The translations under genes were made by a program, and so were the position numbers. A DNA stretch of 64,000 bases. It comes from Gemmatimonadota bacterium. Lineage in GTDB: Bacteria > Gemmatimonadota > Gemmatimonadetes > Gemmatimonadales > Gemmatimonadaceae. The notes beneath the pieces are model-generated. The model worked only from the letters and a program-made list of their open reading frames with translations, was not told the origin of the DNA and did no database searches. Positions 17,548 through 45,388 of the stretch are shown here, one piece after another; the first letter of the stretch is position 1; each line of letters opens with the position of its first letter. The stretch is taken from assembly GCA_021413975.1 (NCBI GenBank), contig JAIOPJ010000055.1, forward strand, positions 62,001 to 126,000. The letters are read 5' to 3'.

Positions 17548-17562
17548 CATGAGGGCCCGCCA

Positions 17563-21716: not shown

Positions 21717-21718
21717 AC

Positions 21719-24053: not shown

Positions 24054-24081
24054 CGGTAGACCATCTCTAAGCGAGGGACAC

Positions 24082-24444
24082 GTGGCTCCGACGGTTCTGA
24101 TCTGTGACGACGCGATCTTCATGCGCACCATGGTGGGCGACATCCTGACGCAGGCGGGCTTCGAGATCGTGGGCGAGGCCGAGACGGGGGTGCAGGCGGT
24201 GGAGAAGTACAAGCTGCTGCGTCCCGACCTCGTGACGATGGACATCGTCATGCCCGACATGGGCGGCATCGACGCGGTGCGGGCGATCACGAAGCTCGAC
24301 CCGAACGCCAAGGTGCTCATGTGCAGCGCGATGGGGCAGCAGTCGCTGGTGGTGGAGGCGATCCAGGCGGGCGCCAAGGACTTCGTCGTGAAGCCCTTCC
24401 AGCCCAGCCGCGTGCTCGAGGCGGTGCAGCGCGTCCTCGGCTGA
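24082..24444 (+). CDS. cheY: CheY-type single-domain response regulator
   Basis: A 120-residue receiver domain with no output domain. The acidic pocket is CDD at 9-10, the phosphorylation site is Asp54 (VTMDIVMPDMGG), then the conserved Ser/Thr position (MCSAMG) and Lys104 (VVKPF) near the end. It should be phosphorylated by the CheA encoded next and act on a motor or polarity target. The GTG start follows GCGAGGGA. An ATCTCTAAG motif lies just upstream, and a 28-base gap separates it from cheW, so an internal promoter is possible. Confidence 0.94.
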   Translation: MAPTVLICDDAIFMRTMVGDILTQAGFEIVGEAETGVQAVEKYKLLRPDLVTMDIVMPDMGGIDAVRAITKLDPNAKVLMCSAMGQQSLVVEAIQAGAKDFVVKPFQPSRVLEAVQRVLG

Positions 24445-27185: not shown

Positions 27186-29911
27186 GCGAGCCCACCGGCA
27201 CCCGGATCTCGGCGCGGGACCGTGAGGTCCTGCGCGGCTTCGCGCACCGGATCGATCCGTCGGACGCCGGCGCCCACAACAACCTGGGCGTGCTCTACTT
27301 CAGCAAGGGGCTCTACGAGGAGGCGGTCGCCGCCTTCACGCAGGCGCTCGACCTCGATCCCAAGATGCAGGTGGCGCAGCGCAACATCGAGGTCGCCTAC
27401 TTCAACACCGGCTACTACGACCAGCGGGTGAACGAGCTGCGCGAGCGGATCCGCATGCGCTCCGACGACCGTGAGGCGCGCTGGGACCTCGGCCGCGCCT
27501 TCGCCCTGCTCGGGCAGCACGAGGACGCGATCCCGGAGTTCCGCGCGTTGCTGCAGCAGCGGCCCAACGACGTGGCGGCGATGATCCAGCTCGGGCTCTC
27601 CGAGAAGGCGACCGGCCGCCTCGGCGAGGCGCTGCTCTGGTTCCGCCAGGCGCTCGCGAGCGATCCCTCCAGCTCGCTGCTGCACTTCTACGTCGGCGAG
27701 GTGCTGTACAACCAGGGCGCGTTCGAGGACGCGCTGAGCGCGATGCGCACGGCGATCCGGCTCAACCCGGACAACCCCGACGCGCACTTCCTGCTCTCGT
27801 TCGTGCTGGGCGACATGGGGCAGCACGCCGAGGCCCAGGCGGCGTCCAAGCGGGCGGTGCAGCTCAATCCGTCGCTCTCCCGCGCCCAGGCGAACCTCTC
27901 GCTCGACCAGTACGATCCCAAGAAGTACGAGGAACTGCTCCCGGGGCGCCAGGCGCGCCGGTCGCAGGCGCAGATGGCGATCGCCGAGGGCGAGCCGCTG
28001 GCGCAGTACACGCTCGGGCTCGCCTACCGGCAGCAGGGGTACATCGCCGAGGCGATGCGGGCCTACCAGAGCGCGCTCGAGCGGGGCGAGGACCGCGCGC
28101 TCGTGATGCAGGCGATGGCCGAGCTGCACCTGATCCAGAAGGATCCTCGGCCGGCGATCGAGCTCTACGACACGCTGCTCACCATGCGGCCCGAGAGCCC
28201 GAAGCTCTGGAACGAGCGCGGCGTGGCCCTGCACCAGGCGGGCGAGCACGCCGCGGCCGCCGAGAGCTATGCGCAGGCGCTCGAGATCGACCCGCACTAC
28301 GCGCTCGCCCGCAACAACCTCGGCGTCGCGCTCTTCCATGCGCGCCAGCCCGACGACGCGATCGACGCGTTCCGGTCGGCGCTCAAGGCCGACCCCGCCC
28401 TCGTGAAGGCGCGGCTCAACCTCGCGCTGCTCCTCACGCGCGGGCATCGGTACCAGCTCGCGCTCGAGGCCTACCGGCAGGTGCTCGACACCTCGCCGGA
28501 GAACGCGGTCGCGTGGAACGGGATCGGCATGGTGCTCGCGGAACTGCGCAAGTTCGCCGAGGCGAGGACGGCGTTCGCCCGCGCGATCCAGTCCAAGCCC
28601 GAGTTCGCCGAGGCGCACTACAACCTGAGCTTCACGCTCTCGAACCTGGGCGACTTCGACGGCGCGCTGCGCGAGACGAAGCTCGCGCTCGAGCTCGACC
28701 CGTACTACGTCGCGCAGAAGTTCTCGCTCGCGATCGACCTCGAGTACGAGGACCCCGACCTCTCGGTGGTCCCCGACCTCGGCGGCGAACAGCGCCTCAC
28801 GACGGAGGTGGACACCTTCACCTTCGATCCGACGCTCCTCGACTCGATCTTCACCGAGCTCGCGCCGGTCCCCGAGGCCGCGCCGCCGCTCGAGAGCGAC
28901 CCCTACCGGCTCGCCGCGGACTACCTGTCCAAGGGGCTCACCGATCGCGCGATGGCCGAGACGCGGCGCGCCCTCGCGCGCGGCGCCGACGCGGTGACGG
29001 GGAACGTGCTGCTCGGCGAGGCCCTCGGACGGCAGGGCGCGTGGGGCGACGCGCTCGAGCGGTTCGAGGACGCGCGCGAGCATGACGCATCGCATCAGGG
29101 GGCGCTGCGCGGGCATGTGCAGTCGCTGCTCATGCTCGGCCGCGGCACCGAAGCGGGAACCGAGGCCGAATCGCTCGTGGCCCTCGCGCCCGACGACGCC
29201 GACGCGCTGATGCTCGTCGCGACCGCGCGCTTCGAGGCCGGCGAGGCCGACCTCGCGCTCGCGGCGCTCGCGCACGCGCGCACGGTCGCGCCGCAGCGCG
29301 CCGACGTGCTGCGCGGGATCGGCAACATCACGCGCGCGCTCGGCGACCTCGACGCGGCGATCGCGGCCTACCGCCATGCGCTCACGATCGACGGGGACTT
29401 CGCCGCCGTGCGCTTCGACCTCGCGCAGCTGCTCCTGCAGCGCGGCCTCTTCGCCGAGGCGGAGGCCGAACTGCATGCGGCACTCGACGCGGTGCCGACC
29501 TACGCCGACGCGACGCTCGCGCTCGCGGGGGTCTACCGCGTGAGCCACCGCGTGCGCGAGGCGCTGCTGTTGCTCGTGGAGTTCCTCGAACGCGACCCCT
29601 ACAGCTTCACCGGGCTGCTGGCGCTCGGCGAGTTGCTGCTCGAGGAGGGCCGGATCACCGATGCGACGGTCGCCTTCCAGCGGATCCTGCGGTTCGACGA
29701 GGATCACGTGGGCGCGATCTTCTACCAGGGCGTGCTGCTCGCCGGGCAGGAGCGGTTCCGCGAAGCGCTGGCGTCGTGGCGCAAGGTGGCGATGCTCGCC
29801 CCCGAGAGCGAATGGGCGCGCCGTGCCTTCCGCGAATCGCGTCAGGTGCAGCACCGGCTCGAGGGCGAAGGGCCGGACGCCACGGCGGCCCGGCCGGGCG
29901 GAGGGGGCTGA
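27182..29911 (+). CDS. large TPR-repeat protein in the chemosensory cluster
   Basis: A 909-residue soluble protein made of about twenty tetratricopeptide repeats. Unit motifs are clear, e.g. AHNNLGVLYFSKGLYEEAVAAFTQALDLDP, NNLGVALFHARQPDDAIDAFRSAL, WNGIGMVLAELRKFAEARTAF. A gap at residues ~520-575 without repeats (acidic, linker-like, VVPDLGGEQRL) splits it into two solenoids. No signal peptide is seen. TPR arrays act as scaffolds; the partner is probably a neighbouring roadblock, GTPase or Che protein. The GTG start overlaps cheC; the stop overlaps the next ATG (TGATG). No named family is recognised. Confidence 0.9.
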   Translation: MSEPTGTRISARDREVLRGFAHRIDPSDAGAHNNLGVLYFSKGLYEEAVAAFTQALDLDPKMQVAQRNIEVAYFNTGYYDQRVNELRERIRMRSDDREARWDLGRAFALLGQHEDAIPEFRALLQQRPNDVAAMIQLGLSEKATGRLGEALLWFRQALASDPSSSLLHFYVGEVLYNQGAFEDALSAMRTAIRLNPDNPDAHFLLSFVLGDMGQHAEAQAASKRAVQLNPSLSRAQANLSLDQYDPKKYEELLPGRQARRSQAQMAIAEGEPLAQYTLGLAYRQQGYIAEAMRAYQSALERGEDRALVMQAMAELHLIQKDPRPAIELYDTLLTMRPESPKLWNERGVALHQAGEHAAAAESYAQALEIDPHYALARNNLGVALFHARQPDDAIDAFRSALKADPALVKARLNLALLLTRGHRYQLALEAYRQVLDTSPENAVAWNGIGMVLAELRKFAEARTAFARAIQSKPEFAEAHYNLSFTLSNLGDFDGALRETKLALELDPYYVAQKFSLAIDLEYEDPDLSVVPDLGGEQRLTTEVDTFTFDPTLLDSIFTELAPVPEAAPPLESDPYRLAADYLSKGLTDRAMAETRRALARGADAVTGNVLLGEALGRQGAWGDALERFEDAREHDASHQGALRGHVQSLLMLGRGTEAGTEAESLVALAPDDADALMLVATARFEAGEADLALAALAHARTVAPQRADVLRGIGNITRALGDLDAAIAAYRHALTIDGDFAAVRFDLAQLLLQRGLFAEAEAELHAALDAVPTYADATLALAGVYRVSHRVREALLLLVEFLERDPYSFTGLLALGELLLEEGRITDATVAFQRILRFDEDHVGAIFYQGVLLAGQERFREALASWRKVAMLAPESEWARRAFRESRQVQHRLEGEGPDATAARPGGGG

Positions 29912-30894
29912 TGGCGATCGAAGGCCCGCTCAAGGAGCTCGGCATCCATGACGTCTTCCAGCTGCTCGACCTGAGCCGGAAGACGGGGATGCTGCTCGTC
30001 ACCTCGGAGCTGCGCGACAACGAGGGGACGGTGCTCTTCGAGAACGGGAAGATCGTGAGCGCGACGATCCGCTCCAATCCGCACCGGCTCGGTGACCTGC
30101 TCATCCGGTCCGGGCGTCTCGCCGAGCTCGACATGATGCGGGCGCAGGCCCTCCAGCAGCGCGGCGACCGCCGCCGGCTCGGCGAGATCCTCATCGCGCT
30201 CGACCTCGTCACGCCCAAGGAGATCGAGCGGCAGATGCGGCTGCAGATCGAGGCCGTGGTCTTCGAGCTCATGTCGTGGCGCGAGGGGTTCTTCCGGTTC
30301 GAGGAAGGGCTGAGCGAGGAGCAGCTGCAGGAGGCGGGCGTGCCCCTGAGCACGGAGTCGCTGCTCATGGAGGGCGCGCGACGCATCGACGAGTGGTCGC
30401 GCATCGCCGACCGCGTGCCGAACCTCTCGATGGTGCCGTACATCACGCCCCCCGACGACGAGCACCCGCCGTTGCTCGACCTGCTGCCGACCGAGTGGCA
30501 GGTGCTCGCGCTCATCGACGGCGCGAACGACCTGCGGGAGATCTCGGCCGCGCTGGCGATGAGCGAGTTCGACGTCGCCCGCATCACGTACGGCATGGTC
30601 AGCACGGGCGTGATCCGGCTCCGGCATCCCGAGCGCACGTCGCGGGCGATCCAGCTGCCGCGCGACGGGGCGAAGAGCGACCCGCACATCACGCCGGTCG
30701 ACTCGGCCGCCGAGCCGCTCTGGCGCGGCGCCGCGGCCTTCCGTCGCGGTGACTTCGCCGAGGGGATCGCGGTCTGGCGCCAGTTCGTGAAGTCGATGCC
30801 GCAGTATCCGGGGTTCGCCTCGATCCTCGACGGGATCTCGGCGGCGACGACGTTGGTGCAGGTGCTCGAGCGGGAGGTGCCGAGTGGCCGGTGA
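29911..30894 (+). CDS. DUF4388 domain protein (first paralog)
   Basis: A 327-residue protein. Residues 1-105 form a DUF4388/PatA-N domain (MAIEGPLKELGIHDVFQLLDLSRKTGMLLV, GTVLFENGKIVSATIRS, RLGDLLIRSGRL), followed by a second half with GEILIALDLVTPKEIERQMRLQIEAVVFELMSWREGFFRFEEG and a winged-helix-like segment (LIDGANDLREISAALAMSEFDVARITYGMVSTGVI). DUF4388 proteins accompany GTPase and response-regulator systems. It closely matches the N-terminal part of the protein at 35305, so the two are paralogs. Its ATG overlaps the TPR stop; role unknown. Confidence 0.85.
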   Translation: MAIEGPLKELGIHDVFQLLDLSRKTGMLLVTSELRDNEGTVLFENGKIVSATIRSNPHRLGDLLIRSGRLAELDMMRAQALQQRGDRRRLGEILIALDLVTPKEIERQMRLQIEAVVFELMSWREGFFRFEEGLSEEQLQEAGVPLSTESLLMEGARRIDEWSRIADRVPNLSMVPYITPPDDEHPPLLDLLPTEWQVLALIDGANDLREISAALAMSEFDVARITYGMVSTGVIRLRHPERTSRAIQLPRDGAKSDPHITPVDSAAEPLWRGAAAFRRGDFAEGIAVWRQFVKSMPQYPGFASILDGISAATTLVQVLEREVPSGR

Positions 30895-31834
30895 CGACAT
30901 CCATGCCATGAGCGAGACGCTGGCGGCGGATCCGGGGAGCCTCGTCTTCCTGCCGCTCGCCGAGGCGTTGCTCGCCCGCGGCGACCTCGTCCGCGCGGCG
31001 CGCGTGGCACAGCGCGGCGCGACCCGCCATCCGGATCGCATCGAGGCGCACGACCTCGTGGCCCGACTCGCGCTCGCGCAGGGCGACGATGAACGGGCCG
31101 AAGCCGGCTTCACCGCCGTGCTCGGGCTCGACCCGAGCTTCGGCACCGCGCACCGCGGCCTCGGGCTCGTGCGCTACCGGCAAGGGCGACTCGACGAGGC
31201 GCGCGAGCATCTCGCGTACGCCGCGCACGTCGATCCACACGACCAGGCCGTGCGGTCGGCGCTCGACGCGGTCGACGGCGTGATCGCGCACCGCGACAGC
31301 GGACCCGGAGCGGCCGCACCGGAGCGCACCGCCGCGGCGCCGGAGTCGCACGACCGGGACGTGGCCGAGGGTGCCGCCCATGCCGCCGGCGAGGCCGCCG
31401 CTGAGGCCACCGCTGAGGCCGCCGCTGAGGCCGCCGCCGAGGGTCAGGTCGCCGTCGATCCGCAGGGCGAGTCGGCGGCCCGGCTCTTCGACCCGATCCT
31501 CGGCGAGGCCAAGCTCGTCGCGTTGCTGCTCGACGCCGACGGCCTCGTGAGCGCCGGAGAGTACATGACCTCGGAGGGCCGCGACCTCGGCAGCGAGATC
31601 GGCGCGCACCTCACGGGCGTGGGGGACGAGGCCGATCGGGCGATCCGCCACTTCAAGCTCGGCAAGTGGACGCGACTGGCGATCGAGACCGAGGCGGCGA
31701 CGATCGCCATGGCGCCGCTCGGCGAACAGGCGGTCCTCGTGGCCGCATCGCGCGACGTGCCGCTCGGCTTCGTGCGCCGCACGCTCGAGCGGTGCCTGAC
31801 GGTCGCGTCACAGTGGATCGGGGAGGGGAAGTGA
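30884..31834 (+). CDS. TPR and roadblock/LC7 fusion protein
   Basis: A 316-residue protein: two or three TPR units (residues ~20-130, e.g. AHRGLGLVRYRQGRLDEAREHLAYA), then an Ala/Glu-rich linker (about 150-190) with a 12-base tandem DNA repeat, then a roadblock/LC7 domain (LVALLLDADGLVSAGEYMTSEG ... HFKLGKWTRLAIETEAATIAMAPLGEQAVLVAA). Roadblock domains include MglB, the GTPase-activating partner of MglA. The GTG start overlaps the DUF4388 gene by 11 bases. It is the first of three consecutive roadblock-type genes. Confidence 0.82.
   Translation: MAGDDIHAMSETLAADPGSLVFLPLAEALLARGDLVRAARVAQRGATRHPDRIEAHDLVARLALAQGDDERAEAGFTAVLGLDPSFGTAHRGLGLVRYRQGRLDEAREHLAYAAHVDPHDQAVRSALDAVDGVIAHRDSGPGAAAPERTAAAPESHDRDVAEGAAHAAGEAAAEATAEAAAEAAAEGQVAVDPQGESAARLFDPILGEAKLVALLLDADGLVSAGEYMTSEGRDLGSEIGAHLTGVGDEADRAIRHFKLGKWTRLAIETEAATIAMAPLGEQAVLVAASRDVPLGFVRRTLERCLTVASQWIGEGK
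31391..31438 (+). repeat. 12-base tandem repeat in the TPR-roadblock linker
   Basis: Four units of GAGGCCGCCGCT or close variants encode EAAAEATAEAAAEAAA between the TPR and roadblock parts. It is an in-frame microsatellite-like linker whose length could vary between strains. Confidence 0.85.
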
Positions 31835-32172
31835 GCGACTTCGCACCCCTGATCGAAGCGGTCACCCGTCACCGCGGCGTCTCGGCCTGCCTCGTGGTCT
31901 CCGAAGGCGACGGGATCGTGGTGGACGGCACCGCGCAGGTCGGCATGCAGATGAACCCGTTCGCGGCGCTCACGGCCTCGCTCTACCGCAAGGCGGGGAA
32001 GGCCTCCGCGGCGGCGGGCTTCGGCACCGTGGGTTATTTCGAACTCGAGGCCGAGGAGGGCCGCGTGCTCGCGGCCGGGCGCAACGGGCTCGTGATCGTC
32101 GCCGTGGCGGAGTCCCGCGTGAACGTCGGACTGCTGCGGGTGGAATTGCTGCGCGCCGCGGAGGGCCTGTGA
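31831..32172 (+). CDS. roadblock/LC7 domain protein (MglB-like)
   Basis: A 113-residue single roadblock/LC7 domain: APLIEAVTRHRGVSACLVVSEGDGIVVDGTAQVGMQMNPFAALTASLYRKAGKASAAAGFGTVGYFELEAEEGRVLAA followed by the strand LVIVAVAES and a C-terminal helix (LLRVELLRAAEGL). It is the size of MglB, the activator of MglA in Myxococcus, and the MglA-like GTPase is two genes downstream. The GTG start overlaps the upstream stop and its own stop overlaps the next GTG (GTGA). Confidence 0.85.
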   Translation: MSDFAPLIEAVTRHRGVSACLVVSEGDGIVVDGTAQVGMQMNPFAALTASLYRKAGKASAAAGFGTVGYFELEAEEGRVLAAGRNGLVIVAVAESRVNVGLLRVELLRAAEGL

Positions 32173-32642
32173 TCCGGCACTCGGTGATGGTCGGCTGGGC
32201 GGACGCCCCGATCAAGCGCTACGTGGACGACGCCCGGTTGCAGCTCACGGTCCTCATGCATCCCAGCGGTCAGGTGCTCGCGCAACATGGCTTCCAGCGG
32301 CGGCTCGACGTGCAGACCGCGTGCGCGCTCTCGGCGGCGATCAATGCGACCGCCGTGCAGCTGGGGCTGCTGATCGACGGGGCGCCGTTCACCGACCTGC
32401 ACTACGCCGGGACGGTGCGCCAGCTCTATCTCGCGCAGATCCCCATCGCCGCCGGCACCCTGGTCCTCCTCTCGGTCTTCGACGACGAGAGTTCGCTCGG
32501 GATCGTGCAGCTCTACCTCGACGAGTTGCGCGCGACGCTCGCGGCGAGCGCCCCCGTGGAGCAGGAGGGTCCGCCCGCGCTCGCCGAGGATTTCGAGCGC
32601 GACCTGAACACGAACCTCGCCGCCCTGTTCGGGAGGCCCTGA
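32169..32642 (+). CDS. roadblock-like protein, divergent
   Basis: A 157-residue protein. The core LQLTVLMHPSGQVLAQHGFQRRLDVQTACALSAAINATAVQLGLLI then FTDLHYAGTVRQLYLAQIPIAAGTLVLLSVFDDESSLGIVQLYLDELRATL has the strand-helix-strand order of a roadblock fold (beta-beta-alpha-beta-beta-beta-alpha). The C-terminal ~35 residues are acidic with a helix (EDFERDLNTNLAALFGR). It lies directly before the MglA-like gene, so it may be the second subunit of a heteromeric activator. The family assignment is by pattern and less sure than for the previous gene. Confidence 0.65.
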   Translation: MIRHSVMVGWADAPIKRYVDDARLQLTVLMHPSGQVLAQHGFQRRLDVQTACALSAAINATAVQLGLLIDGAPFTDLHYAGTVRQLYLAQIPIAAGTLVLLSVFDDESSLGIVQLYLDELRATLAASAPVEQEGPPALAEDFERDLNTNLAALFGRP

Positions 32643-32679: not shown

Positions 32680-33282
32680 GTGAGCCTCGTCAACTACGCC
32701 ACGCGCGAGATCACCTGCAAGATCGTCTACTATGGCCCGGGTCGGTCGGGGAAGACGACGAACCTGCACTACATCTACGGACAGGTGCCGGGCGACCGCA
32801 AAGGCCAGATGGTCTCGCTCGCCACGCAGACCGACCGCACGCTGTTCTTCGACTTCCTGCCGATCGACCTCGGCACCATCTCCGGTTTCACCACCCGCTT
32901 CCAGCTCTACACGGTGCCCGGGCAGGTCTACTACCAGACGACGCGCAAGCTCGTGCTGCAGGGGGCCGACGGCGTCGTCTTCGTCGCCGACAGCCAGGCG
33001 CGGCAACTCGACGAGAACATCGAGTCGATGCAGGACCTGCACGCGAACCTCGCCGAGCAGGGGGTCGATGCGCGCACCATGCCGCTCGTGATCCAGTACA
33101 ACAAGCAGGACCTCCCGCCCGAGATGGTGACGTCGGTCGCCGACCTCGACGAGGCGCTCAACTTCCGCGGCGTCCCGTCCTTCGCGGCCGATGCGCTCCA
33201 CGGCCCCGGCGTCTTCGAGACCCTGCGCGGGATCTCCGAACAGGTGCTCCGTCGGTTGAGCACCGGGTCGCAAGGGCGCTGA
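32680..33282 (+). CDS. MglA-like Ras-family GTPase
   Basis: A 200-residue small GTPase. The P-loop is GPGRSGKT (19-26), switch II has TVPGQ at 78-82 instead of the eukaryotic DxxG, as in MglA, the guanine-specificity motif is NKQD (141-144) and PSFAADAL stands in the G5 position. Opening residues VNYATREITCKIVYYG are typical of MglA. In Myxococcus, MglA-GTP marks the leading pole and drives gliding and pilus use, reversed by the Frz chemosensory system. Roadblock genes lie upstream and Che genes on both sides here. The start is GTG; cluster membership suggests a polarity role. Confidence 0.92.
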   Translation: MSLVNYATREITCKIVYYGPGRSGKTTNLHYIYGQVPGDRKGQMVSLATQTDRTLFFDFLPIDLGTISGFTTRFQLYTVPGQVYYQTTRKLVLQGADGVVFVADSQARQLDENIESMQDLHANLAEQGVDARTMPLVIQYNKQDLPPEMVTSVADLDEALNFRGVPSFAADALHGPGVFETLRGISEQVLRRLSTGSQGR

Positions 33283-33283
33283 G

Positions 33284-35305
33284 GTGCGTCTCGATCCGCG
33301 ACTGACCTTCGACCGGCTGGTCGTCGGGGCGGGCAACCGCCTCGCGTCCGCGGCCGCGCGTGCGGTCGCGGAATCGCCCGGCACCGTCTACAACCCGCTC
33401 TTCGTGTACGGCGGCTCGGGGCTCGGCAAGACGCACCTGCTCACCGCGGCGGCGCATCTGCTGCTCGAGATGCAGCCCGACGCCGAGATCCTCGCGCTCA
33501 CGCTCGACGAGTTCTCGGAGCAGTTCCACGCGGCCGTCTCCGCCGGGGAGCCGCAGACCTTCAGCGGGCGGCTCGGTCATGCCCACCTGCTCCTGCTCGA
33601 CGACGTCCAGTTCCTCACCGGCCGGCGCGAGATGCAGGCCGAGCTGCTCAAGCAGCTCACGCGCCTGCAGTCGCAGGGGCGCCAGGTGATCTGCGCATGC
33701 GACCGGCTCCCGGCCGAGATCGGTGATGTGGACGAGCGGCTCATCGAGCGTCTCGCCGGCGGCCTCGTCGTGGACATCTCGCCGCCGGAGTACGAGGCGC
33801 GGGTGGCCATCCTGCGCGCGGCGTGCAAGGAACGCGGCGTCGTCGTGCCGGCCGGTGCGCTCGAGTCGATCGCCCGCAAGAGCGTGCTCTCGGTGCGCGA
33901 ACTCCTCGGCGCACTCAACGACTGGATCGCCCGGCAGACGCTCGGCGGCGAGCGGACGCCGACCGGTCGAACGCCCACCGGGCGTACGCCGATGCGCGGC
34001 ACGGCGATCAATCTGGCACCGTTGCGCGCCACGCCGGCGCTTGGCACCGCCACGACCGTCGCGGCGGAGGGCCGGACGCCGGCCGCGCGCACCCCGGTCC
34101 CGGGCCGCGCTCCCGCGGCCCGTTCGGGGGAGTTCCTCAGCTTCCTCTCCGACGTCGCGAGCGCCGTGCAGTCGCATGTGGAGTCCTGGCAGGTGAAGCT
34201 GCGCGAGACCATCGCCTACTGGAGCGGCGAGGGCTATCGCACCGGCGTACTCGAGCGTGCCCTCACGCTGCCCAACGACCCCGACGTGCCCGCCCTCGTG
34301 GCCATGTACGTCCAGGCGGTGGAGCACCTCCGCAAGCTCGAGGCGGCAGCGGTTTCGGTGGACCGCTCGCTGGCGGGGCAGTCGATCTTCCGCGACCCCG
34401 AGCGGCTGGAGGAGGCCGAGGACCTCGTGGAGCGGGCGCTCGCCGGGGAGATGCCCCCGGGCGGCGCGATCCCGGCCTTCACCCGCGAGGGCTTCGACGA
34501 GGGGGCATCGAACCAGCTCGCGCTGTACGCCGGCGACGCGGTGATCGCGGCCCCCGGGACGCGCTACAACCCGCTCTTCATCACCGGCGGGAGTGGCCTG
34601 GGCAAGACGCACCTCGTGCACGCGATCGGCAACGCGATCGCCGAATCCACCGGCGGACGGTCGCACGTCGCCTGCGTGCACGCGCAGGTGCTGGTGGACG
34701 AACTCATCGCGGCGATCCAGCAGGGCACCGTCGAGCGGTGGCGCAACCGGTATCGGCTGGCCGACGTGCTGATCGTCGACGACGTGCAGTTCCTCTCCGG
34801 CAAGGAGCGGACACAGGACGAGTTCTTCTTCCTGTTCAACACGCTCATCGAGGCGGGGAAGCAGATCATCCTCTCGAGCGACCGCCCGGCGTCGGAGATC
34901 CCGGAGCTCGCGGCGCGACTGCGCTCGCGCTTCGAGGGTGGACTGACGGCGGTCATCCAGCCCCCCGACCGGCCGCTGCGCGAGAAGCTCGTCGCGCGCT
35001 TCCTCGCGGCGCTCGGCCGGCCGGCGACGCCCGCGCTGCTCGACGTCGTCTGCGACACCGCGGTGCCGAGTGTGCGCGAACTCATCGGCCTGGTGAACCG
35101 CCTCGCGGCGGCGGCGGACGCGCGCGGCGTGCCGCTCGACGCCGCGCTCGCGCGCACCGAACTCGGGTTCGGCGCGTCGTCGTCGGCGACGATGGCCCCG
35201 GCGGCGGCCGCCGAGGCCGCGGGGGACCGCACCTTCCTCGACCGCGAGCGCGTGATCTGGGAATGGCCGGACATCGGTGCACGCCTCATCGAGGAGATGC
35301 GCTGA
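33284..35305 (+). CDS. protein with two DnaA-type AAA+ domains and no DNA-binding domain
   Basis: A 673-residue protein with two DnaA-like ATPase domains. Domain 1 (~1-215): LTFDRLVVGAGNRLASAAA (the DnaA box before Walker A), Walker A GGSGLGKTH at 43-51, Walker B LLLLDDVQFL at 102-111, sensor 2 SVRELLGALN with Arg205. A Thr/Pro/Arg linker (~220-282) and helical stretch (~285-400) follow. Domain 2 (~402-628): Walker A GGSGLGKTH at 435-443, Walker B IVDDVQFLSG, Arg-finger segment LRSRFEGGL (Arg549), sensor 2 SVRELIGLVN. DnaA's HTH domain IV is absent; the tail ends WEWPDIGARLIEEMR. It starts two bases after the MglA stop. A replication role looks unlikely. Confidence 0.88.
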   Translation: MRLDPRLTFDRLVVGAGNRLASAAARAVAESPGTVYNPLFVYGGSGLGKTHLLTAAAHLLLEMQPDAEILALTLDEFSEQFHAAVSAGEPQTFSGRLGHAHLLLLDDVQFLTGRREMQAELLKQLTRLQSQGRQVICACDRLPAEIGDVDERLIERLAGGLVVDISPPEYEARVAILRAACKERGVVVPAGALESIARKSVLSVRELLGALNDWIARQTLGGERTPTGRTPTGRTPMRGTAINLAPLRATPALGTATTVAAEGRTPAARTPVPGRAPAARSGEFLSFLSDVASAVQSHVESWQVKLRETIAYWSGEGYRTGVLERALTLPNDPDVPALVAMYVQAVEHLRKLEAAAVSVDRSLAGQSIFRDPERLEEAEDLVERALAGEMPPGGAIPAFTREGFDEGASNQLALYAGDAVIAAPGTRYNPLFITGGSGLGKTHLVHAIGNAIAESTGGRSHVACVHAQVLVDELIAAIQQGTVERWRNRYRLADVLIVDDVQFLSGKERTQDEFFFLFNTLIEAGKQIILSSDRPASEIPELAARLRSRFEGGLTAVIQPPDRPLREKLVARFLAALGRPATPALLDVVCDTAVPSVRELIGLVNRLAAAADARGVPLDAALARTELGFGASSSATMAPAAAAEAAGDRTFLDRERVIWEWPDIGARLIEEMR

Positions 35306-36924
35306 TGGCGATCCGCGGCTCACTCAAGGAGGCCTCGCTCCCCGACGTGCTGCAGCTCCTCGCCATGGGCAAGAAGAGCGGCTGCCTCTCGGTCACGCAT
35401 CGCAGCAACTTCGGCTCGATCTACTTCGACAAGGGTCGCATCTGCTACGCGTCGATCATCAACCGCCGCGACCGGCTGGGCGACATCCTCGTCAAGAGCG
35501 GGATCCTCTCGCAGGACAAGCTCGACGACGCGATCGCGGTGCAGGCGAAGTCGCGCGGCATGCGCCTGGGCGACCTGCTCGTGGAGCGCAAGTCGATCAC
35601 GCGCGAGGACCTGCACACGCAGATCCGGATCCAGATCGAGGAAGCGGTCTACTTCCTCTTCACCTGGGCCGAGGGGACGTTCAACTTCGAGGCGGACATC
35701 CGGCCCGAGGAGCAGGATCTCCTCGTGTCGATCAACCCCGAGTCGCTGCTGCTCGAGGGGGCGCGACGCGTCGACGAGTGGAGCCTGATCGAGAAGAAGG
35801 TGCCGTCGTTCGACATCGTCTTCGAGGTGGACCGTCGCAAGCTGATGGAGAGCAACGCCACGCTCACCACCGAGCAGCAGACGCTCCTGCCGCTGATCGA
35901 CGGCCGCCGCGACGTCGCCGCGCTCGTGGATGAATCGGGACTCGTGGAGTTCGACGTCGGCAAGGCGCTGTTCGGGCTCGCGACCGCCGGCTTCCTGCAC
36001 CGCGTCGGCAAGACGCGGCCGCAGGAGGAGCTCGCGGCCGACGTGCGGGTGGAGGAGCACCGCAACCTCGGCGTCGCGTTCTACCGGACCGGCATGCTCG
36101 ACGAGGCCGTGCGCGAGTTCCGCCGCGTGGCCGAACTGCGGCCCGACGACCTCGGCGCGCGCTTCTTCCTCGGGCTCGCCCACCTGCGGCTCGGCAAGTG
36201 GTCCGAGGCGCTCACGCACCTCGAGGCGGCGTCGCGCCATCGCGGCGCCGTGGCCGCGGTCTTCCACGACCTCGCGCTCGCGTACGAGCGGCTCGGCCGG
36301 CTCGACGAGGCGCACCAGGCGCTCGAGCAGGCGCTCGCCCGCGGCGGCGCGACCGAACCGCGGGTGCATCTCTCGCTCGGCATCCTCGCGCTGCGGGCCG
36401 GGCGGTTCGCCGAGGCCGACGAGCACTTCATGCGTGCCCGGCCCCTCTTCGGGACCAAGGCGCCTTCGCCGGTCTGGTACCACTCGGCCGGCCTGGCGGC
36501 GGGGCTCTCCGGCGACCTCGCCAAGGCGATCGAGATCCTCACCGAGGGGGCCGCGGCGCATCCCGGGGCGGCGGCGCTGCACAACAACCTCGCGGTCGCG
36601 CTCGCGACGAAGGGACGGGGAGAGGAGGCGCTCCAGGCGATCGACCGCGGGATCTCCGCCGACTCGAGCCTCGCACCGCTGCATCGCAATCGCGGCGATC
36701 TCATGCTCGCTGCCCGCCAGCCCGACCAGGCACTCGAGGAGTACCTCCGGGCCGTGAAGCACCACGAGACGCTCGGCCCCGAGGTCTGGGCCCGCATCGG
36801 CGGGTTGCGCGCGGCGCACGGCGAGATGCCCGAGGCGACCTCGGCGTGGGAGCGCGCGCTGCAACTCGACCCCGGCCACCCCGAGGCCCGCGATAAGCTC
36901 GCGGCGGCCCGCAACGGCGGATGA
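35305..36924 (+). CDS. DUF4388-TPR fusion protein (second paralog)
   Basis: A 539-residue protein. The N-terminal ~245 residues copy the layout of the DUF4388 protein at 29911: MAIRGSLKEASLPDVLQLLAMGKKSGCLSV, GSIYFDKGRICYASIINR, RLGDILVKSGIL, GDLLVERKSITREDLHTQIRIQIEEAVYFLFTWAEGTFNFE, then LLPLIDGRRDVAALVDESGLVEFDVGKALFGL. About eight TPR units fill residues ~255-535 (LGLAHLRLGKWSEALTHLEAA, LHNNLAVALATKGRGEEALQAI). It overlaps the DnaA-like stop (TGATG) and the cheR start. A scaffold role joining the GTPase and Che parts is inferred from its domain content and place. Confidence 0.85.
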   Translation: MAIRGSLKEASLPDVLQLLAMGKKSGCLSVTHRSNFGSIYFDKGRICYASIINRRDRLGDILVKSGILSQDKLDDAIAVQAKSRGMRLGDLLVERKSITREDLHTQIRIQIEEAVYFLFTWAEGTFNFEADIRPEEQDLLVSINPESLLLEGARRVDEWSLIEKKVPSFDIVFEVDRRKLMESNATLTTEQQTLLPLIDGRRDVAALVDESGLVEFDVGKALFGLATAGFLHRVGKTRPQEELAADVRVEEHRNLGVAFYRTGMLDEAVREFRRVAELRPDDLGARFFLGLAHLRLGKWSEALTHLEAASRHRGAVAAVFHDLALAYERLGRLDEAHQALEQALARGGATEPRVHLSLGILALRAGRFAEADEHFMRARPLFGTKAPSPVWYHSAGLAAGLSGDLAKAIEILTEGAAAHPGAAALHNNLAVALATKGRGEEALQAIDRGISADSSLAPLHRNRGDLMLAARQPDQALEEYLRAVKHHETLGPEVWARIGGLRAAHGEMPEATSAWERALQLDPGHPEARDKLAAARNGG

Positions 36925-37748
36925 ACACCGGCCCGGTGGACGAAGTGGAGTTCCGCGCGCTCACGGCGAAGATCGCCGCCGAGCGAGGCTTCGGCTGCGC
37001 CAACTACAAGGACGGCTGCCTCCGCCGCCGCATCGCGGTCCGCATGCGCGCCCGCGGCTCCGCGAGCTTCTCGGACTACCGGGCGTTGCTCGATCGCGAC
37101 GCCGGCGAATACGACCTGCTGCTCGACGCGCTGACGATCAACGTCACCAAGCTCTATCGCGACGCGGCGGTCTGGGAGGCGGTGGCGCAGCAGGTCATCC
37201 CCAAGCTCTGGGCGCTCGACCTGCCACGCCTCACCGTCTGGAGCGCCGGCTGCTCCTCCGGCGAGGAACTCTACACCCTGGCGGCGCTCTTCCACCGTCA
37301 CGCCGAACGGTCGGGGACGCTCGCGCGGCTGCGGCGGGTGCGGATCATCGGCAGTGACATCGACCGTGCGTCGCTCGAGCGGGCGCAGGCGGGCGTCTAC
37401 GCGCCGGAGTCGTTCACCGAGATGCCGGTGGAACTGCGCCGGCGGTATTTCTCCGTCGACGCGCCCCACTCGGCGGCCGCCGAGCTACGGGCCCTCGTCA
37501 CGGTCGAGCGGCGCGACCTGCTGCGGGAGCCAGCGCCGGCCACCGACGTGCAGCTGATCACCTGTCGCAACGTGGTGATCTACTTCGACCGGGCGAGTCA
37601 GGAATCGCTCATGCGGAAGTTCCACGATGCGCTCGCCCCGGGTGGCTACCTCGTGTTGGGGAAGGTCGAGACGCTCATGGGCCCGCTCCGCGCGCTGTAT
37701 GACGTGGTGGACTCGCGCGAGCGGATCTTCCGCCGGGCGGCCGCATGA
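36921..37748 (+). CDS. cheR: chemoreceptor methyltransferase CheR
   Basis: A 275-residue CheR. The N-terminal helical domain (FRALTAKIAAERGFGCANYKDGCLRRRIAVRMRARG) precedes the SAM-binding domain with VWSAGCSSGEELYTLA, IIGSDIDRASLERAQAGVY, and CRNVVIYFDRASQESLMRKFHDALAPGGYLVLGKVETL. It methylates glutamates of chemoreceptors using S-adenosylmethionine. There is no chemoreceptor gene in the window, so substrates are encoded elsewhere. The ATG overlaps the DUF4388-TPR stop and the stop overlaps cheD by four bases. Confidence 0.95.
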   Translation: MNTGPVDEVEFRALTAKIAAERGFGCANYKDGCLRRRIAVRMRARGSASFSDYRALLDRDAGEYDLLLDALTINVTKLYRDAAVWEAVAQQVIPKLWALDLPRLTVWSAGCSSGEELYTLAALFHRHAERSGTLARLRRVRIIGSDIDRASLERAQAGVYAPESFTEMPVELRRRYFSVDAPHSAAAELRALVTVERRDLLREPAPATDVQLITCRNVVIYFDRASQESLMRKFHDALAPGGYLVLGKVETLMGPLRALYDVVDSRERIFRRAAA

Positions 37749-38224
37749 CCGACCAGCACGTGCGCATCGCGCACCACGCGGTCGCCCGCGGCAGCGGGCG
37801 CCTCGTCACCATCGGACTCGGCTCGTGCGTGGCGATCGCGCTGCACGACGCGCGCTTCCGCGTGACGGGGCTCGCCCACGTGCTGCTCCCCGATCCGAGC
37901 GTGGCGCGCGATCCGGGCAATGCCGCCCGCTTCGCGTCGACCGCGGTGCCGATGCTCGTGACCGAGATGCGGGCGATGGGCGCGCGCGGTGAACTCACGG
38001 CGCGCATCGCCGGCGGGGCGGCGCTCTTCGGCACCATGCTCGCGACTCCGGGCGGACAGATGGGCGCGCGCAACGTCGCGGCCGCCAAGGCGGCGCTCGT
38101 GGCGGCACGGATCCCGCTCGTGGGCGAGGAGACGGGCGGTGGGGCGGGGCGCAGCGTGGCCGTCGACGTGAACACCGGCGCCATGACCGTGCGGTCGGTG
38201 CGCGGAGGCGAACGTGTCCTCTGA
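37745..38224 (+). CDS. cheD: chemoreceptor glutamine deamidase CheD
   Basis: A 159-residue CheD. It has TIGLGSCVAIALHDARFRVTGLAHVLLPD (catalytic Cys in GSCV and His in LAHVLLP), FASTAVPMLVTEMRAMGARG, ARIAGGAALF and the C-terminal IGRRNV-equivalent QMGARNVAAAKAALVAARIPLVGEETGGGAGRSVAVDVNTGAM. It deamidates receptor glutamines and binds CheC, which is encoded about 11 kb upstream in the same run. The stop overlaps the cheB start by 11 bases. Confidence 0.94.
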   Translation: MTDQHVRIAHHAVARGSGRLVTIGLGSCVAIALHDARFRVTGLAHVLLPDPSVARDPGNAARFASTAVPMLVTEMRAMGARGELTARIAGGAALFGTMLATPGGQMGARNVAAAKAALVAARIPLVGEETGGGAGRSVAVDVNTGAMTVRSVRGGERVL

Positions 38225-39272
38225 GCGCCGCGTGCTCGTCGTGGAGGACAACGCGCTGCTGCGCGAGGTGCTCCGCGAACTGATCGACGGACTCGACGGC
38301 TTCCGCGTGATCGCGACCGCCGCCGACGGCGAGGAGGGGTTGCGGCTCGTGCATCGGCTCGACCCCGACATCGTGACGCTCGACATCGAGATGCCGGTCG
38401 TGGACGGGCTCGCGGCGCTCGGCTACATCATGAGCGAACTGCCGCGCCCCGTGGTGATGGTGAGCGGGGCCACGACGCGCGGCTCGGTGGATCTCACGAT
38501 CCGCGCGCTCGAGCTCGGTGCGGTGGACTTCGTGCGCAAGCCGGCCGGGAACACCCCCGAGGACTGGGCGTCGGTGGGGCAGCGGGTCGAGGATGCCCTG
38601 CGCGCGGCGGCGCAGATGAACGTGCGCGGGGTGGGGATGCTCGCGCGTCCGCGCCTGCGCACGCCCGCGCCCCTCGCGCGGGTGTCGCGTGGCGCGGCCG
38701 CCGCCGTGGCGATCGCGAGTTCCACCGGGGGGCCGCGCGCGCTCGCGGAGGTCATCCCGGGCTTCGCCGCGGGGTTCGACGCCGCGGTGCTCATCGCGCA
38801 GCACATGCCGCCCGGCTTCACGGCCGGTCTCGCCCGGCGGTTGGACCAGCTCTCCACCCTGCCGGTGCACGAGGCGACGCACGGCGAGGCCGTGGAGCCC
38901 GGTCGCGTCTATCTCGCCCCCGGCGGTTCCCACATGACCGTCACCGAATCGTCCGGCGGTTTCGCCATCATGCTGAACCAGGGTCCGTCGGTGCATGGGG
39001 TCCGGCCCGCGGCCGACCCGCTCTTCGTCTCGGTGGCCACGCACTTCGGGCGGCGCAGCGTGGGCGTGGTGCTCACGGGGATGGGCCGGGATGCGGCGGC
39101 CGGTCTGCGCGCCATCCGCGCCGCCGGCGGCGGCGCCGTGGTGCAGGACCGTGCGACGTCGGTGATCTACGGCATGCCGCAGGTGGCGCTCGCCGAAGCG
39201 GGCGCCGATCGCGAAGCGCCGCTCGGAGAGGTCGCGCGCGCGGCGACGGTGCTGCTCGAGGCGCGCCGATGA
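38214..39272 (+). CDS. cheB: chemoreceptor methylesterase CheB
   Basis: A 352-residue CheB: receiver domain with phosphorylation site Asp57 (DIVTLDIEMPVVDG), then the methylesterase domain with IASSTGGPRALAEV (nucleophile Ser), IAQHMPPGFTAGLARRL (His) and LTGMGRDAAAGLRAI (Asp). It removes methyl groups and deamidates receptors, opposing CheR. The GTG start lies inside the end of cheD. The stop overlaps the second cheW (ATGA). Confidence 0.95.
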   Translation: MSSERRVLVVEDNALLREVLRELIDGLDGFRVIATAADGEEGLRLVHRLDPDIVTLDIEMPVVDGLAALGYIMSELPRPVVMVSGATTRGSVDLTIRALELGAVDFVRKPAGNTPEDWASVGQRVEDALRAAAQMNVRGVGMLARPRLRTPAPLARVSRGAAAAVAIASSTGGPRALAEVIPGFAAGFDAAVLIAQHMPPGFTAGLARRLDQLSTLPVHEATHGEAVEPGRVYLAPGGSHMTVTESSGGFAIMLNQGPSVHGVRPAADPLFVSVATHFGRRSVGVVLTGMGRDAAAGLRAIRAAGGGAVVQDRATSVIYGMPQVALAEAGADREAPLGEVARAATVLLEARR

Positions 39273-39712
39273 ACCCCGAACGATTCCTCCTCGCGCGGAT
39301 CGGCACCGAGACCTTCGCCTTCCCCCTGGCCGAGGTGCTCGAGGCGACCGATGCGACCGAGGTCACGCCGCTCGCGCTCCTGCCTTCCGGCGTCGCCGGC
39401 CAGAGCGTGTACCGGGATCGGCTCCTGCCGGTGATCGACGGCAGCATGTTGCTCGGCGTGACGCGGAGCGGGCCCAAGGGAGTGCTGCTCGTGATCGAGG
39501 TCGATGGGGACCGTGTGGCCCTCTGGGCCGACGACGTGGTCGACATGGTGACCGTCGACCCACGCCGGTTCCGCGCGGTGCCGGCCGGCGGGAGCGGGAC
39601 CGGCACGATGCTGCGCGCCGTGGTGGACCTCGGCGACGTGATCGCCGCGGTGGTCTCGATGGACGACGTGCGCGCCTTCGTGCGCGCGCGGCTCATGACG
39701 GAGGTCGCATGA
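39269..39712 (+). CDS. CheW-type coupling protein (second)
   Basis: A 147-residue CheW-like domain: FLLARIGTETFAFPLAEVLEATDATEV, LPSGVAGQSVYRDRLLPVIDGSMLLGV and VIEVDGDRVALWADDVVDMVTVD. It lacks the usual LRG motif (GLLNLRG in the first copy; here GQSVYRDRLLPVID), so its binding to CheA or receptors may differ. It is squeezed between cheB and the third cheW with four-base overlaps on both sides. Confidence 0.82.
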   Translation: MNPERFLLARIGTETFAFPLAEVLEATDATEVTPLALLPSGVAGQSVYRDRLLPVIDGSMLLGVTRSGPKGVLLVIEVDGDRVALWADDVVDMVTVDPRRFRAVPAGGSGTGTMLRAVVDLGDVIAAVVSMDDVRAFVRARLMTEVA

Positions 39713-40200
39713 CGAGTACGGGCACGGCGACGCGGCGGCAGCTCGTGACGTTCGCCGCGGGAGGGGAGCTCTTCGCGGCCGACATCTTCTCGGTGGAGCG
39801 CGTGCTCCGCCATACGCCGCCGCGCCTGCTGCCGAACGCGGCGCCCTGGTTGCGTGGCGTGATCGAGCACGCCGGCACGGCGATCCCCGTGATCGACCTC
39901 CGCGAGCGCCTGGGACTCGGCGCGGCCGAGACGCCGGCGGGGGCACGGATCCTCGTCGTGGTCGTCGGGGACACGCGGATCGGCGTCACGGTGGACGAGG
40001 TGCAGGCCGTGCGCGCGATCGATCCCGCACTGATCGAACCGCCGCCCGCGATCTACCGCGGGCTGGCGCGCGAGTACCTGGAGGGCGTGGCGCGGCTGGA
40101 CGGCGAACTCTTCGTCGTGCTGGCCATCACGCACCTGTTGGATTCAACGGAGCGGATCGAGATGGCGCGCGCGCTCGCATCGGAGGGAGCTCATGTCTGA
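39709..40200 (+). CDS. CheW-type coupling protein (third)
   Basis: A 163-residue CheW domain: RQLVTFAAGGELFAADIFSVERVLRH, LLPNAAPWLRGVIEHAGTAIPVIDLRERLGLG (canonical W-x-R-G...PVIDLR motif), RILVVVVGDTRIGVTVDEVQAVRAI and the C-terminal YLEGVARLDGELFVVLAITHLLD. This copy is closest to canonical CheW. It overlaps both neighbours. Having three CheW proteins suggests more than one receptor or kinase arrangement. Confidence 0.9.
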   Translation: MTSTGTATRRQLVTFAAGGELFAADIFSVERVLRHTPPRLLPNAAPWLRGVIEHAGTAIPVIDLRERLGLGAAETPAGARILVVVVGDTRIGVTVDEVQAVRAIDPALIEPPPAIYRGLAREYLEGVARLDGELFVVLAITHLLDSTERIEMARALASEGAHV

Positions 40201-41059
40201 CGAGACCCTGGCATCGTACAAGGCCAAGTACGCGTCGATCGACCAGCGGCTCGACGCCGGCCTGTCGGACGCGGAGCGGCCGGCGGTGAAGACGGAGATC
40301 GTGACGCTCTTCAAGTCGGTGGAGCAGCAGCTCGCCGAGTTGTCGGTGCTGCGCGACGAGATCAAGTCGCTGGTCGACAAGTGGAAGGCCCAGCAGGTCG
40401 CGAGCGCGGCGAACCTCGCGCCGCAGTTCACGGGCGAGAAGCCGGTCGTGCACGCCGATCACATCGGGGCGAGCACGTTCATCGAGAAGGGCTGGAGCCG
40501 CCTCTCCCTCGGCGACCACGAGGGGGCGGAGCAGGCGCTCCTCAAGGCGATCGAGCTCTCGCCCGGCGACCCCCAGAGCGAGGCGCTGCTCGGCTGGGCG
40601 CAGATGCTGCAGGAGAAGTACGACGACGCGCTCATGAACTTCCAGAAGGTGCTCGTGCGCGAGCCGGCGAACTCGCTGGCCCGCATCAACGTCGGCTACA
40701 TCTGCCTGAAGAAGAAGATCTTCGGCGAGGCGATCGAGCACCTCTCCAAGGCCATCCGGCTCGACAACGACCGCAAGGCGTCGCTCTACGCGCACTTCTA
40801 CCTCGGCCTCGTCTACTTCGAGCGCGAGATGTACGAGGACGCGCAGACCTTCTTCCGCAAGACGCTCGGGCTGGGGCCGAACCTGATCGAGGCGTACTAC
40901 GAGCTCGGTCGGGCGCACTGGTTCAATGACGAGCGCGAGCAGGGGCTCGAGGTGTGGAAGCAGGGCCTCGCGGCGAACAAGTTCAATCCGTGGGGCAAGA
41001 AGTGCGGTGAGATGGTCCGCCTCGTCGAGGGAGGGGGGGAACCGCCGCGTGAGACCTGA
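40193..41059 (+). CDS. coiled-coil TPR protein at the end of the chemosensory run
   Basis: A 288-residue soluble protein. Residues 1-65 are helical/coiled coil (YASIDQRLDAGLSDAERPAVKTEIVTLF ... LAELSVLRDEIKSLVDKWKAQQ), and residues ~85-265 are four or five TPR units (SRLSLGDHEGAEQALLKAIELSP, ALMNFQKVLVREPANSLARINVGY, GLVYFEREMYEDAQTFFRKTLGLGP). The start at 40193 overlaps the third cheW. It could be an adaptor between the Che array and its output; no family name is assigned. Confidence 0.8.
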   Translation: MSDETLASYKAKYASIDQRLDAGLSDAERPAVKTEIVTLFKSVEQQLAELSVLRDEIKSLVDKWKAQQVASAANLAPQFTGEKPVVHADHIGASTFIEKGWSRLSLGDHEGAEQALLKAIELSPGDPQSEALLGWAQMLQEKYDDALMNFQKVLVREPANSLARINVGYICLKKKIFGEAIEHLSKAIRLDNDRKASLYAHFYLGLVYFEREMYEDAQTFFRKTLGLGPNLIEAYYELGRAHWFNDEREQGLEVWKQGLAANKFNPWGKKCGEMVRLVEGGGEPPRET

Positions 41060-42110
41060 CGCGGCCGGTGGCGCACGGCGCGCGGGGATCGGTGGTCTCC
41101 TCCGACTCGTGCTGATCGGCGTCGCGCTCCAGGTCGGCCTGGGTCTGCTGGTGGCGCGCCCGGGAGGCGCGCAGGAAACGGTGCCGGCCGGGGCCGCGGT
41201 GCTTCGCGAAGGACGCTTCGAGGTCATCCACTTCCCGGGTGAGACGCGCTTCGCGCAGGCGGTGCTCGCTGCGGCGGTCGCTCGCGACTCGTTCCCCGGT
41301 CTGCCGCGGCTCACGGACCCGGTGCGGATCCAGCTGGCGCCCGACGAGCGGACCTTCCGCGAGTGGGTCGGCGCCGGGGCGCCGGACTGGGGCGGGGCCT
41401 TCGCCTTCCCGGCCGAACGCCTCATCGTGATGCAGGGGAGGAACGCGGCGGCGGCCGTCGGCGATCCCATGGCCACGCTCCGGCATGAGCTCGCCCATCT
41501 GGCCCTGGCCGAGGTGCTGCGCGGGCAGGTCCCACGCTGGTTCGACGAGGGGTACGCCTCGTACGCGGCCGGTGAGTGGGGCCGCGAGGAGGTCCTCGCC
41601 ACGAGCGTGGGGCTGATCTGGCGCGGCATCCCGACCCTCGCGGGGCTCGACTCGGGGTTCTACGCCGGGTCCGGCCGGGCCGAGCGCACGTATGCGTTGG
41701 CCCACCGGGCGGTCGCCGAACTGGCGTCGCTCGACCGGGAGCGCGGCCTCACCCTCTTCTTCGACTACTGGCGGCGCGAAGGGTCGTTCGAGCGGGCGCT
41801 CCGCTCGGCGTACGGCATGACGAGCGCCGATTTCGAGCGCCACTGGCGCGCGCGGGTGCGCCGGCAATACGGGGCGCTCGCCCTCGCGGCCGACCTCTCG
41901 GTGCTCTCGGTCTTCCTCGTGTTCCTGCTGGGACCGCTCTGGTGGCAGCGACGGCAGCGCCTCAGGGACCGGCTCGAGCGCATGCGCCAGGCGGACGCGG
42001 CGCAGGAGGAGCGGGAACGAATGAGCGCCCTGGCGGCCTTGCTGGGTGAGGGCGCTCCGGACGCACCGGACCCGCCGCACGCGCCGGCACCCCCGCGGGG
42101 CCCGGATTAA
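41049..42110 (+). CDS. membrane-anchored gluzincin peptidase (peptidase MA-like)
   Basis: A 353-residue protein. An N-terminal hydrophobic segment (LLRLVLIGVALQVGLGLLVA) acts as signal or anchor, then a zinc-peptidase domain with HELAH at 146-150 and the third ligand Glu167 in WFDEGYASY; HExxH plus Glu 17 residues later is the gluzincin pattern seen in M1/M61 and peptidase MA families. A second membrane helix lies near residue 290 (LSVLSVFLVFLLGPLWW) with a charged, Pro-rich cytoplasmic tail. The catalytic part should be outside the inner membrane. The GTG start overlaps the TPR stop by 11 bases. Confidence 0.85.
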   Translation: MRPDAAGGARRAGIGGLLRLVLIGVALQVGLGLLVARPGGAQETVPAGAAVLREGRFEVIHFPGETRFAQAVLAAAVARDSFPGLPRLTDPVRIQLAPDERTFREWVGAGAPDWGGAFAFPAERLIVMQGRNAAAAVGDPMATLRHELAHLALAEVLRGQVPRWFDEGYASYAAGEWGREEVLATSVGLIWRGIPTLAGLDSGFYAGSGRAERTYALAHRAVAELASLDRERGLTLFFDYWRREGSFERALRSAYGMTSADFERHWRARVRRQYGALALAADLSVLSVFLVFLLGPLWWQRRQRLRDRLERMRQADAAQEERERMSALAALLGEGAPDAPDPPHAPAPPRGPD

Positions 42111-44300: not shown

Positions 44301-44336
44301 GTGCGTTGGCGGGCCCGACCCATCATCTTTCACAGC

Positions 44337-45386: not shown

Positions 45387-45388
45387 GG

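Follow-up and report, generated by a model that had tools for sequence, protein, structure and literature searches.

A tandem DnaA-type ATPase without the DNA-binding domain is encoded between mglA and a DUF4388/TPR gene in Gemmatimonadota

Results

Domain architecture of the tandem protein

The window analysed here, a stretch of 64,000 nucleotides from a Gemmatimonadota bacterium (G000:C1:62001-126000; host genome of 3.08 Mb, 92.7% complete), carries on its plus strand, at 33284..35305, a gene with a GTG start that encodes a tandem DnaA-type AAA+ protein of 673 amino acids, as defined by its open reading frame, Pfam matches and a family alignment. Pfam family PF00308 (Bac_DnaA) gave two matches in the protein (full-sequence E=1.5e-98). 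A search of the whole genome, with a cut-off of 23 bits, yielded scores of 157.9 bits for the first half and 177.3 bits for the second. Both halves contained the motif GGSGLGKTH (residues 43-51 and 435-443), together with DDVQFL and VREL. These results confirmed an earlier, sequence-only reading of this DNA, which had proposed two DnaA-like ATPase domains at 33284-35305(+). The absence of the helix-turn-helix (HTH) domain IV of DnaA, also claimed there, was borne out: neither the N-terminal nor the C-terminal (HTH) domain of DnaA gave a Pfam match in the tandem protein, and no residue aligned with R399 of E. coli DnaA (domain IV) was present in either half. DnaA domain I is not present, as the first ATPase domain starts at residue 1-2.

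This first domain, AAA1 (residues 1-222; 33284..33949, with Walker A at 33410-33436), was assigned to the DnaA domain III type by Pfam, fold match and residue alignment. It is followed by a poorly conserved, Thr/Pro/Arg-rich linker (residues 223-282; 33950..34129) that was modelled with low confidence, the predicted local distance difference test (pLDDT) being under 50 at residues 223-283. The model and the conservation pattern then delimited a helical domain, which we call LINK (residues 283-386; 34130..34441) and for which a search for a known family gave none. Of the two parts of the linker described by the sequence-only reading, the Thr/Pro/Arg stretch is poorly conserved and the helical part is a conserved domain. 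AAA2 (residues 397-628; 34472..35167, with Walker A at 34586-34612) is again of the DnaA domain III type by Pfam, fold match and alignment and includes the initiator-specific motif. Finally, conservation marked a C-terminal tail (residues 655-672; 35246..35299) with the usual form E-K/R-x-x-W-x-W-P-x(4)-R-x-x-E-E.

Relation to DnaA, Hda and loader families

Three PF00308 matches were found in the whole genome, two of them being the tandem halves and the third a true dnaA located elsewhere (486-aa frame at G000:C33:43655). DnaA domain III was the best fold match of both halves. The tandem protein passed the cut-off of the NCBIfam DnaA equivalog TIGR00362 (457.5 vs 343.9 bits, summed over two stretches), and for this reason tandem genes may be annotated as dnaA by automatic pipelines. 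It did not reach the cut-off of the Hda model (132.6 vs 194.8 bits) or those of the loaders IstB (86 vs 200 bits), DnaI (53.4 vs 228 bits) and DnaC (17.5 vs 357 bits). Hda has an N-terminal clamp-binding motif before its AAA+ domain; the tandem protein has no residues before AAA1 that could hold such a motif.

We then placed the halves in an unrooted tree of 82 AAA domains, in which the branches of Hda and DnaC were very long and their places unsure. AAA1 halves, along with seven of the nine single-AAA rows, split from AAA2 and DnaA (99/99). AAA2 halves formed one group (90/88), joined at 88/96 by the other two singles, one of which (L102) is truncated at the end of its contig, and DnaA from this phylum and others grouped with Hda (92/79). 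Profile search and tree together gave DnaA-type scores for each half and a position apart from DnaA, and neither half is, in this comparison, a recent copy of the DnaA of the phylum. Because a separate dnaA exists, the HTH domain is missing and the halves group apart from DnaA, replication initiation by the tandem protein is unlikely.

Spread, selection and gene neighbourhood

The family profile was run on Gemmatimonadota genomes, so that counts of spread refer to this phylum. The set comprised 112 genomes, namely those of the phylum with completeness of 97 or more and the window's own; many are draft assemblies, absences being provisional, and gene starts are uncertain in the GC-rich genomes of the set. 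Matches at E<1e-100 occurred in 64 of the 112 genomes, including two (G298 and G160) that matched AAA1 and LINK only. Outside the 64, several genomes had weaker, reduced forms and many had dnaA only. MglA, scored as a match at E<=1e-20 anywhere in the genome, was found in 64/64 tandem-type genomes vs 32/48 of the others. The window's genome has a second MglA (G000:C7:10340-10816, 229-aa frame, 62% identity), and several tandem-less genomes keep only an MglA copy of this kind.

The ratio of nonsynonymous to synonymous substitution rates (dN/dS) ranged from 0.05 to 0.33 in 14/14 ortholog pairs tested; at the sequence level, purifying selection acts on the tandem gene, which is conserved. A scan of genome contigs for close relatives returned two confirmed loci, with 57% and 55% identity, both titled Gemmatimonadetes. 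No plasmid (110 matching records) or phage (42) covered 80% of the query at a single location, and the features underlying the best 40 of the 110 plasmid rows and the best 30 of the 42 phage rows were dnaA. Viral contigs gave three weak loci only.

Gene order was analysed in 48 loci around close relatives, 46 of them informative for the position of mglA. The latter was directly upstream of the tandem gene in 45 of these 46 (43 detected by BLAST, some of them partial at a contig end, and two by profile at a contig edge); the remaining loci were two without upstream sequence and L025. In L025 (G019), a roadblock gene replaces mglA before the tandem gene, the only such case among close relatives with upstream sequence. 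The DUF4388/TPR gene was directly downstream in 48/48 loci. Tandem and mglA matches shared one contig in 53 genomes and lay within 200 bases in 51; in G098, one of the two beyond this distance, the profile match begins within the gene. An mglA match over 250 bits was missing in 11 of the 64 genomes, three of genus g26 and eight of family f5. A divergent mglA (40-43% identity) was adjacent in G041 and G057, the two g26 genomes examined, and in G053, and all eight f5 genomes (8/8) have, at another location, an MglA with about 58-60% identity.

In the window, the genes around the tandem gene are all on the plus strand. The order begins with a receiver-domain response regulator (24046..24441, a stop-to-stop frame; PF00072) and cheA (24490..26556; Hpt, P2, H-kinase_dim, HATPase and CheW domains), followed by a TPR protein of 909 aa (27182..29911; domain match), a protein with DUF4388, which we equate with PATAN (29908..30894, ATG at 29911; PF14332, 109.3 bits), a TPR and roadblock protein (30884..31834; domain match), a Roadblock/LC7 protein (listed at 31666..32172, although the true start may be further downstream; PF03259, 24.8 bits vs a cut-off of 23), an mglB-like gene (32169..32642, 157 aa) and mglA, encoding a Ras-like GTPase (32680..33282). 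Downstream of the tandem gene are the DUF4388/TPR gene (35305..36924; PF14332, 131.7 bits), cheR (36921..37748; PF01739), cheD (37745..38224; PF03975), cheB (38214..39272; PF01339), two cheW genes (39269..39712 and 39709..40200; PF01584), a TPR gene (40193..41059; domain match) and a Peptidase-MA-like gene (40926..42110; PF13485), which stays downstream even where che and mgl genes are absent. The operon is flanked by an Ala_racemase_N/DivIVA/tRNA-synthetase/pseudouridine-synthase group (16301-23629) and by a division cluster of MraW, transpeptidase, Mur-ligase and FtsW genes (44301-54274). One base, not the two previously read, separates the mglA stop codon (33280-33282) from the GTG at 33284, and the ATG of the DUF4388/TPR gene overlaps the tandem stop codon by one base. 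As in a polarity module, a true mglA and an mglB-like gene are both in the operon: the MglA of the window matched solved MglA chains along its length (6h17_A, E=2.5e-73, residues 1-197), and the MglB-like protein, with no Pfam match, gave a weak match to MglB chain 6h5b_B (E=1.4e-6). No replication genes were found beside the tandem gene in the loci annotated.

These neighbourhoods bear on the possibility that the protein is an Hda-like regulator, whose AAA+ domains would co-assemble with the DnaA of the cell and so tie replication initiation to the chemosensory or polarity state. Both halves are indeed very close to DnaA domain III, with arginine fingers present, and no further PF00308 protein, hence no separate Hda, was seen in the 92.7%-complete genome. 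However, the spread is patchy, the gene adjoins DUF4388/TPR in every one of the 48 loci, mostly with mgl and che genes and with no replication gene in those annotated, and the Hda cut-off was missed. We therefore consider a regulator of this type improbable.

Residue constraints in the two ATPase domains

Conservation was evaluated in 79 proteins, comprising 48 core members, 15 f1 variants, 5 f4 and 11 f5 members. In AAA1, K49 and D106 were kept in all 79 proteins and R156 and R205 in 77 each. The corresponding counts in AAA2 were 67 for K441, 68 for D499, 77 for R549, 76 for R509 and 56 for K507, the sensor-2 residue R598 being kept in 46/79 plus one f4 protein with an R at a doubtfully aligned place. 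R549 aligns with R285 of E. coli DnaA. Results for the f5 AAA2 were 0/11 for both K441 and D499 and 11/11 for R545, R549 and R509. With both Walker motifs lost and the arginine finger kept in 11/11, this domain is a pseudo-ATPase (L057-L061, L065, L145-L149). Since the f5 AAA2 lost its Walker motifs yet kept the arginine finger, AAA2 probably serves AAA1, and the simplest reading of the residue patterns would be that ATPase function is required of AAA1, that AAA2 is retained chiefly to provide its finger, and that no form can dispense with the tail.

In the tail, W661 was the sole invariant residue (79/79), the full W-x-WP being usual but not universal. The tail persists without an adjacent mglA and also without the ATPases, and in these cases the DUF4388/TPR neighbour is there; for this reason, we infer that it probably docks to the adjacent DUF4388/TPR protein.

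Residues V211, K243 and R245 of E. coli DnaA contact single-stranded DNA. Half 2 has I475, K507 and R509 at these places, half 1 has H82, R114 and E116, and the cell's own DnaA has I219, K251 and S253. Among the roles that the sequence-only reading had favoured was DNA-independent remodelling, a mode that is not supported, given that AAA2 keeps K507 and R509, the latter in 76/79 proteins. Could AAA2 then bind single-stranded or nucleoid DNA through its retained initiator-specific motif, and in this way act as a DNA anchor providing a positional cue for the polarity module? The alignment of I475, K507 and R509 and the frequency of the last two (56/79 and 76/79) would fit; on the other side, K507 is lost in 16/16 f4 and f5 members, half 1 carries other residues at those places, and the protein has no HTH domain. 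On balance, we find such an anchor unlikely.

Natural variants of the slot

Families f6 and f9 have a single AAA1-type AAA followed by LINK, within the mgl operon; the AAA2 profile scores slightly better on the single AAA of G085. G031 has LINK without an AAA domain, and AAA1 is shortened or damaged in G033 and G032. L118 (G090) shows, in the same slot, a divergent single AAA with a WP tail, in which the LINK domain was not found. An apparent AAA1-LINK-TPR fusion in a 1002-aa frame of G160 (L100) was rejected because the TPR match is in another frame, which indicates a deletion or an assembly junction.

In genera g5, g7 and g37 and in genome G023 of g8, short peptides lie between mglA and the DUF4388/TPR gene in 19/19 loci examined. 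Measured from the first motif to the C-terminus, they are 54-72 aa long, and LINK helix 1 and the WP tail are all that remains of the tandem protein; WP...EE is retained in 19/19. These remnants (L091, L119, L124, L126, L127, L129-L132, L134-L140, L142-L144) are a candidate minimal adaptor. The clade without ATPases (L124, L126, L127, L129-L132, L134-L140, L142 and L143, of g5, g7 and g37) also has a DUF4388/TPR protein from which model positions 56-108 are missing. We considered this co-loss as proof of contact, but the argument is weakened by the fact that the 16/16 rows form one clade (100/100) and thus count as one event. G023 (L119) lost the ATPases and kept positions 56-108; in the tree it falls outside the 16-row clade or its place is unsettled, so that one or two loss events occurred.

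The remnants raise the question of whether the ATPases are optional, the core being an adaptor made of LINK helix 1 and the C-tail between MglA and DUF4388/TPR, whose stability or number the AAA+ domains would only tune. Peptides with just these two motifs occupy the same slot in all 19 genomes examined of g5, g7, g37 and g8. However, the catalytic residues of AAA1 are present in 79/79 full proteins under purifying selection, so ATP use matters where the domain is present, and the 16 remnant rows without the DUF4388 insertion are one clade, which together with G023 makes only one or two events. We judge this explanation to be unlikely.

Discussion

Taken together, two DnaA-type ATPase sites, the lack of the DnaA DNA-binding domain, long conservation and a fixed slot from mglA to DUF4388/TPR characterise this gene. 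We propose, with a probability of about 0.5, that the DnaA AAA+ domain was duplicated and recruited to supply the ATPase of a signalling adaptor, within an operon that encodes MglA, MglB, roadblock and Che proteins. The sequence-only reading had preferred a role in polarity, array placement or DNA-independent remodelling to replication initiation; it holds in that the protein is not an initiator and sits in an MglA/MglB/chemosensory operon, and is not supported in its DNA-independent mode. Signalling together with MglA, MglB and Che proteins explains the data best, the partners being suggested by gene association, and the operon probably governs cell polarity or movement.

In the proposed mechanism, the duplicated domain would provide the ATPase of the adaptor, and its two copies would correspond to adjacent subunits of a DnaA-like filament, joined in one chain. 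AAA1 would be the obligatory ATPase, its site being completed by the AAA2 finger R549 of the same or another chain; chains with an intact AAA2 could extend head to tail. Docking onto the DUF4388/TPR protein encoded next to it would rely on the tail around W661 together with the first LINK helix. Control by CheA would act through MglB-type proteins on the switching of MglA, for which the state of the tandem protein, assembled or disassembled in an ATP-dependent way, would serve as effector. The most likely order of the signal would thus be CheA and receiver, MglB/roadblock and MglA, the tandem ATPase with DUF4388/TPR, and a motility machine. The pair of tandem and DUF4388/TPR proteins may be akin to the level of MglA effectors in M. 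xanthus, where an SgmX-type TPR protein stimulates type IV pili. Type IV pili are a plausible output, given PilT-family matches above the cut-off in 109/112 genomes and FliG in only 39/112. A more specific version, in which the DnaA filament motor became a cytoplasmic ATP-driven polarity switch or polymer, with an AAA2 that can decay to a finger donor and a Trp tail docked on DUF4388/TPR, the whole being read out by MglA, is tentative and in our view doubtful.

Several observations weigh against the signalling adaptor. Its coupling to mglA, firm in 45/46 loci, breaks down in family f5, where the tandem gene is accompanied by DUF4388/TPR and peptidase-MA genes, and mglA, mglB and cheA are beside it in 0/5 long stretches (L084, L085, L098, L099 and L100, with about 7.5 kb or more upstream; L100, from G160, carries a damaged gene and was counted solely for flanking content). 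The exceptions there are one MglB-profile hit of 28 bits in L099 and occasional receiver-domain hits. Upstream of the f5 gene in L098, the order Ala_racemase_N, DivIVA, class I tRNA synthetase with DUF5915 and pseudouridine synthase equals that upstream of the window operon, which places the f5 gene at the same chromosomal position. Conversely, a clade exists that keeps the mgl operon without the ATPases, so neither MglA nor the ATPase depends on having the other nearby. Throughout the loci read, the one partner always retained was the DUF4388/TPR gene downstream. The AAA pair, too, is not essential everywhere, given the AAA1 and LINK forms of f6 and f9; the f6 singles have partly lost the finger region and sensor 2, and the AAA2 finger R549 is missing in 2/15 f1 variants. 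Domain-to-domain placement is uncertain in the predicted structure (predicted template modelling score of 0.53). As to the output, PilT is near-universal and does not discriminate, and FliG is commoner with the tandem gene (29/64 vs 10/48 tandem-less genomes), which makes a flagellar link possible; by FliG status, tandem-type genomes account for 29/39 genomes with FliG and 35/73 without.

The DnaA ATPase is usually treated as a part of replication; here, a conserved, duplicated form sits outside replication, in an operon with a Ras-like GTPase. If the proposal is true, a DnaA-type filament or switch would be reusable for spatial signalling and MglA modules would gain an ATP-driven partner. The variants offer a natural series for dissecting arginine-finger coupling, from a dead AAA2 with its finger through single AAA forms to peptide-only remnants. 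Judged by titles and the first lines of abstracts among the matches listed, the open-access literature contained no description of a tandem DnaA ATPase. Two papers report PATAN genes near mglA and MglB homologues (PMC4316618) and two PATAN proteins among ten that co-occur with SgmX (PMC11580455).

Compared with known systems, the operon resembles the MglA/MglB polarity module of Myxococcus and Thermus in that the neighbouring genes encode a true MglA and a protein similar to MglB; as to differences, the word 'DnaA' has 0 occurrences in the texts of PMC4316618 and PMC11580455. SgmX of M. xanthus is a TPR protein that acts with MglA on type IV pili (PMC7519303), and in this sense is a functional analogue of the DUF4388/TPR neighbour only. 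Hda, the regulatory inactivator of DnaA, which stimulates hydrolysis of the ATP bound to DnaA, shares a DnaA-type AAA+ domain without HTH domain, and the DnaC, DnaI and IstB loaders share an AAA+ domain of the initiator clade without the DnaA HTH. Like DnaA itself, the tandem protein has the AAA+ core with Walker A and B, Box VII arginine finger and sensor 2, and in half 2 the initiator-specific motif; unlike DnaA, it lacks domain I and HTH domain IV, contains two AAA+ domains per chain plus its own LINK domain and C-tail, and belongs to an MglA/Che operon.
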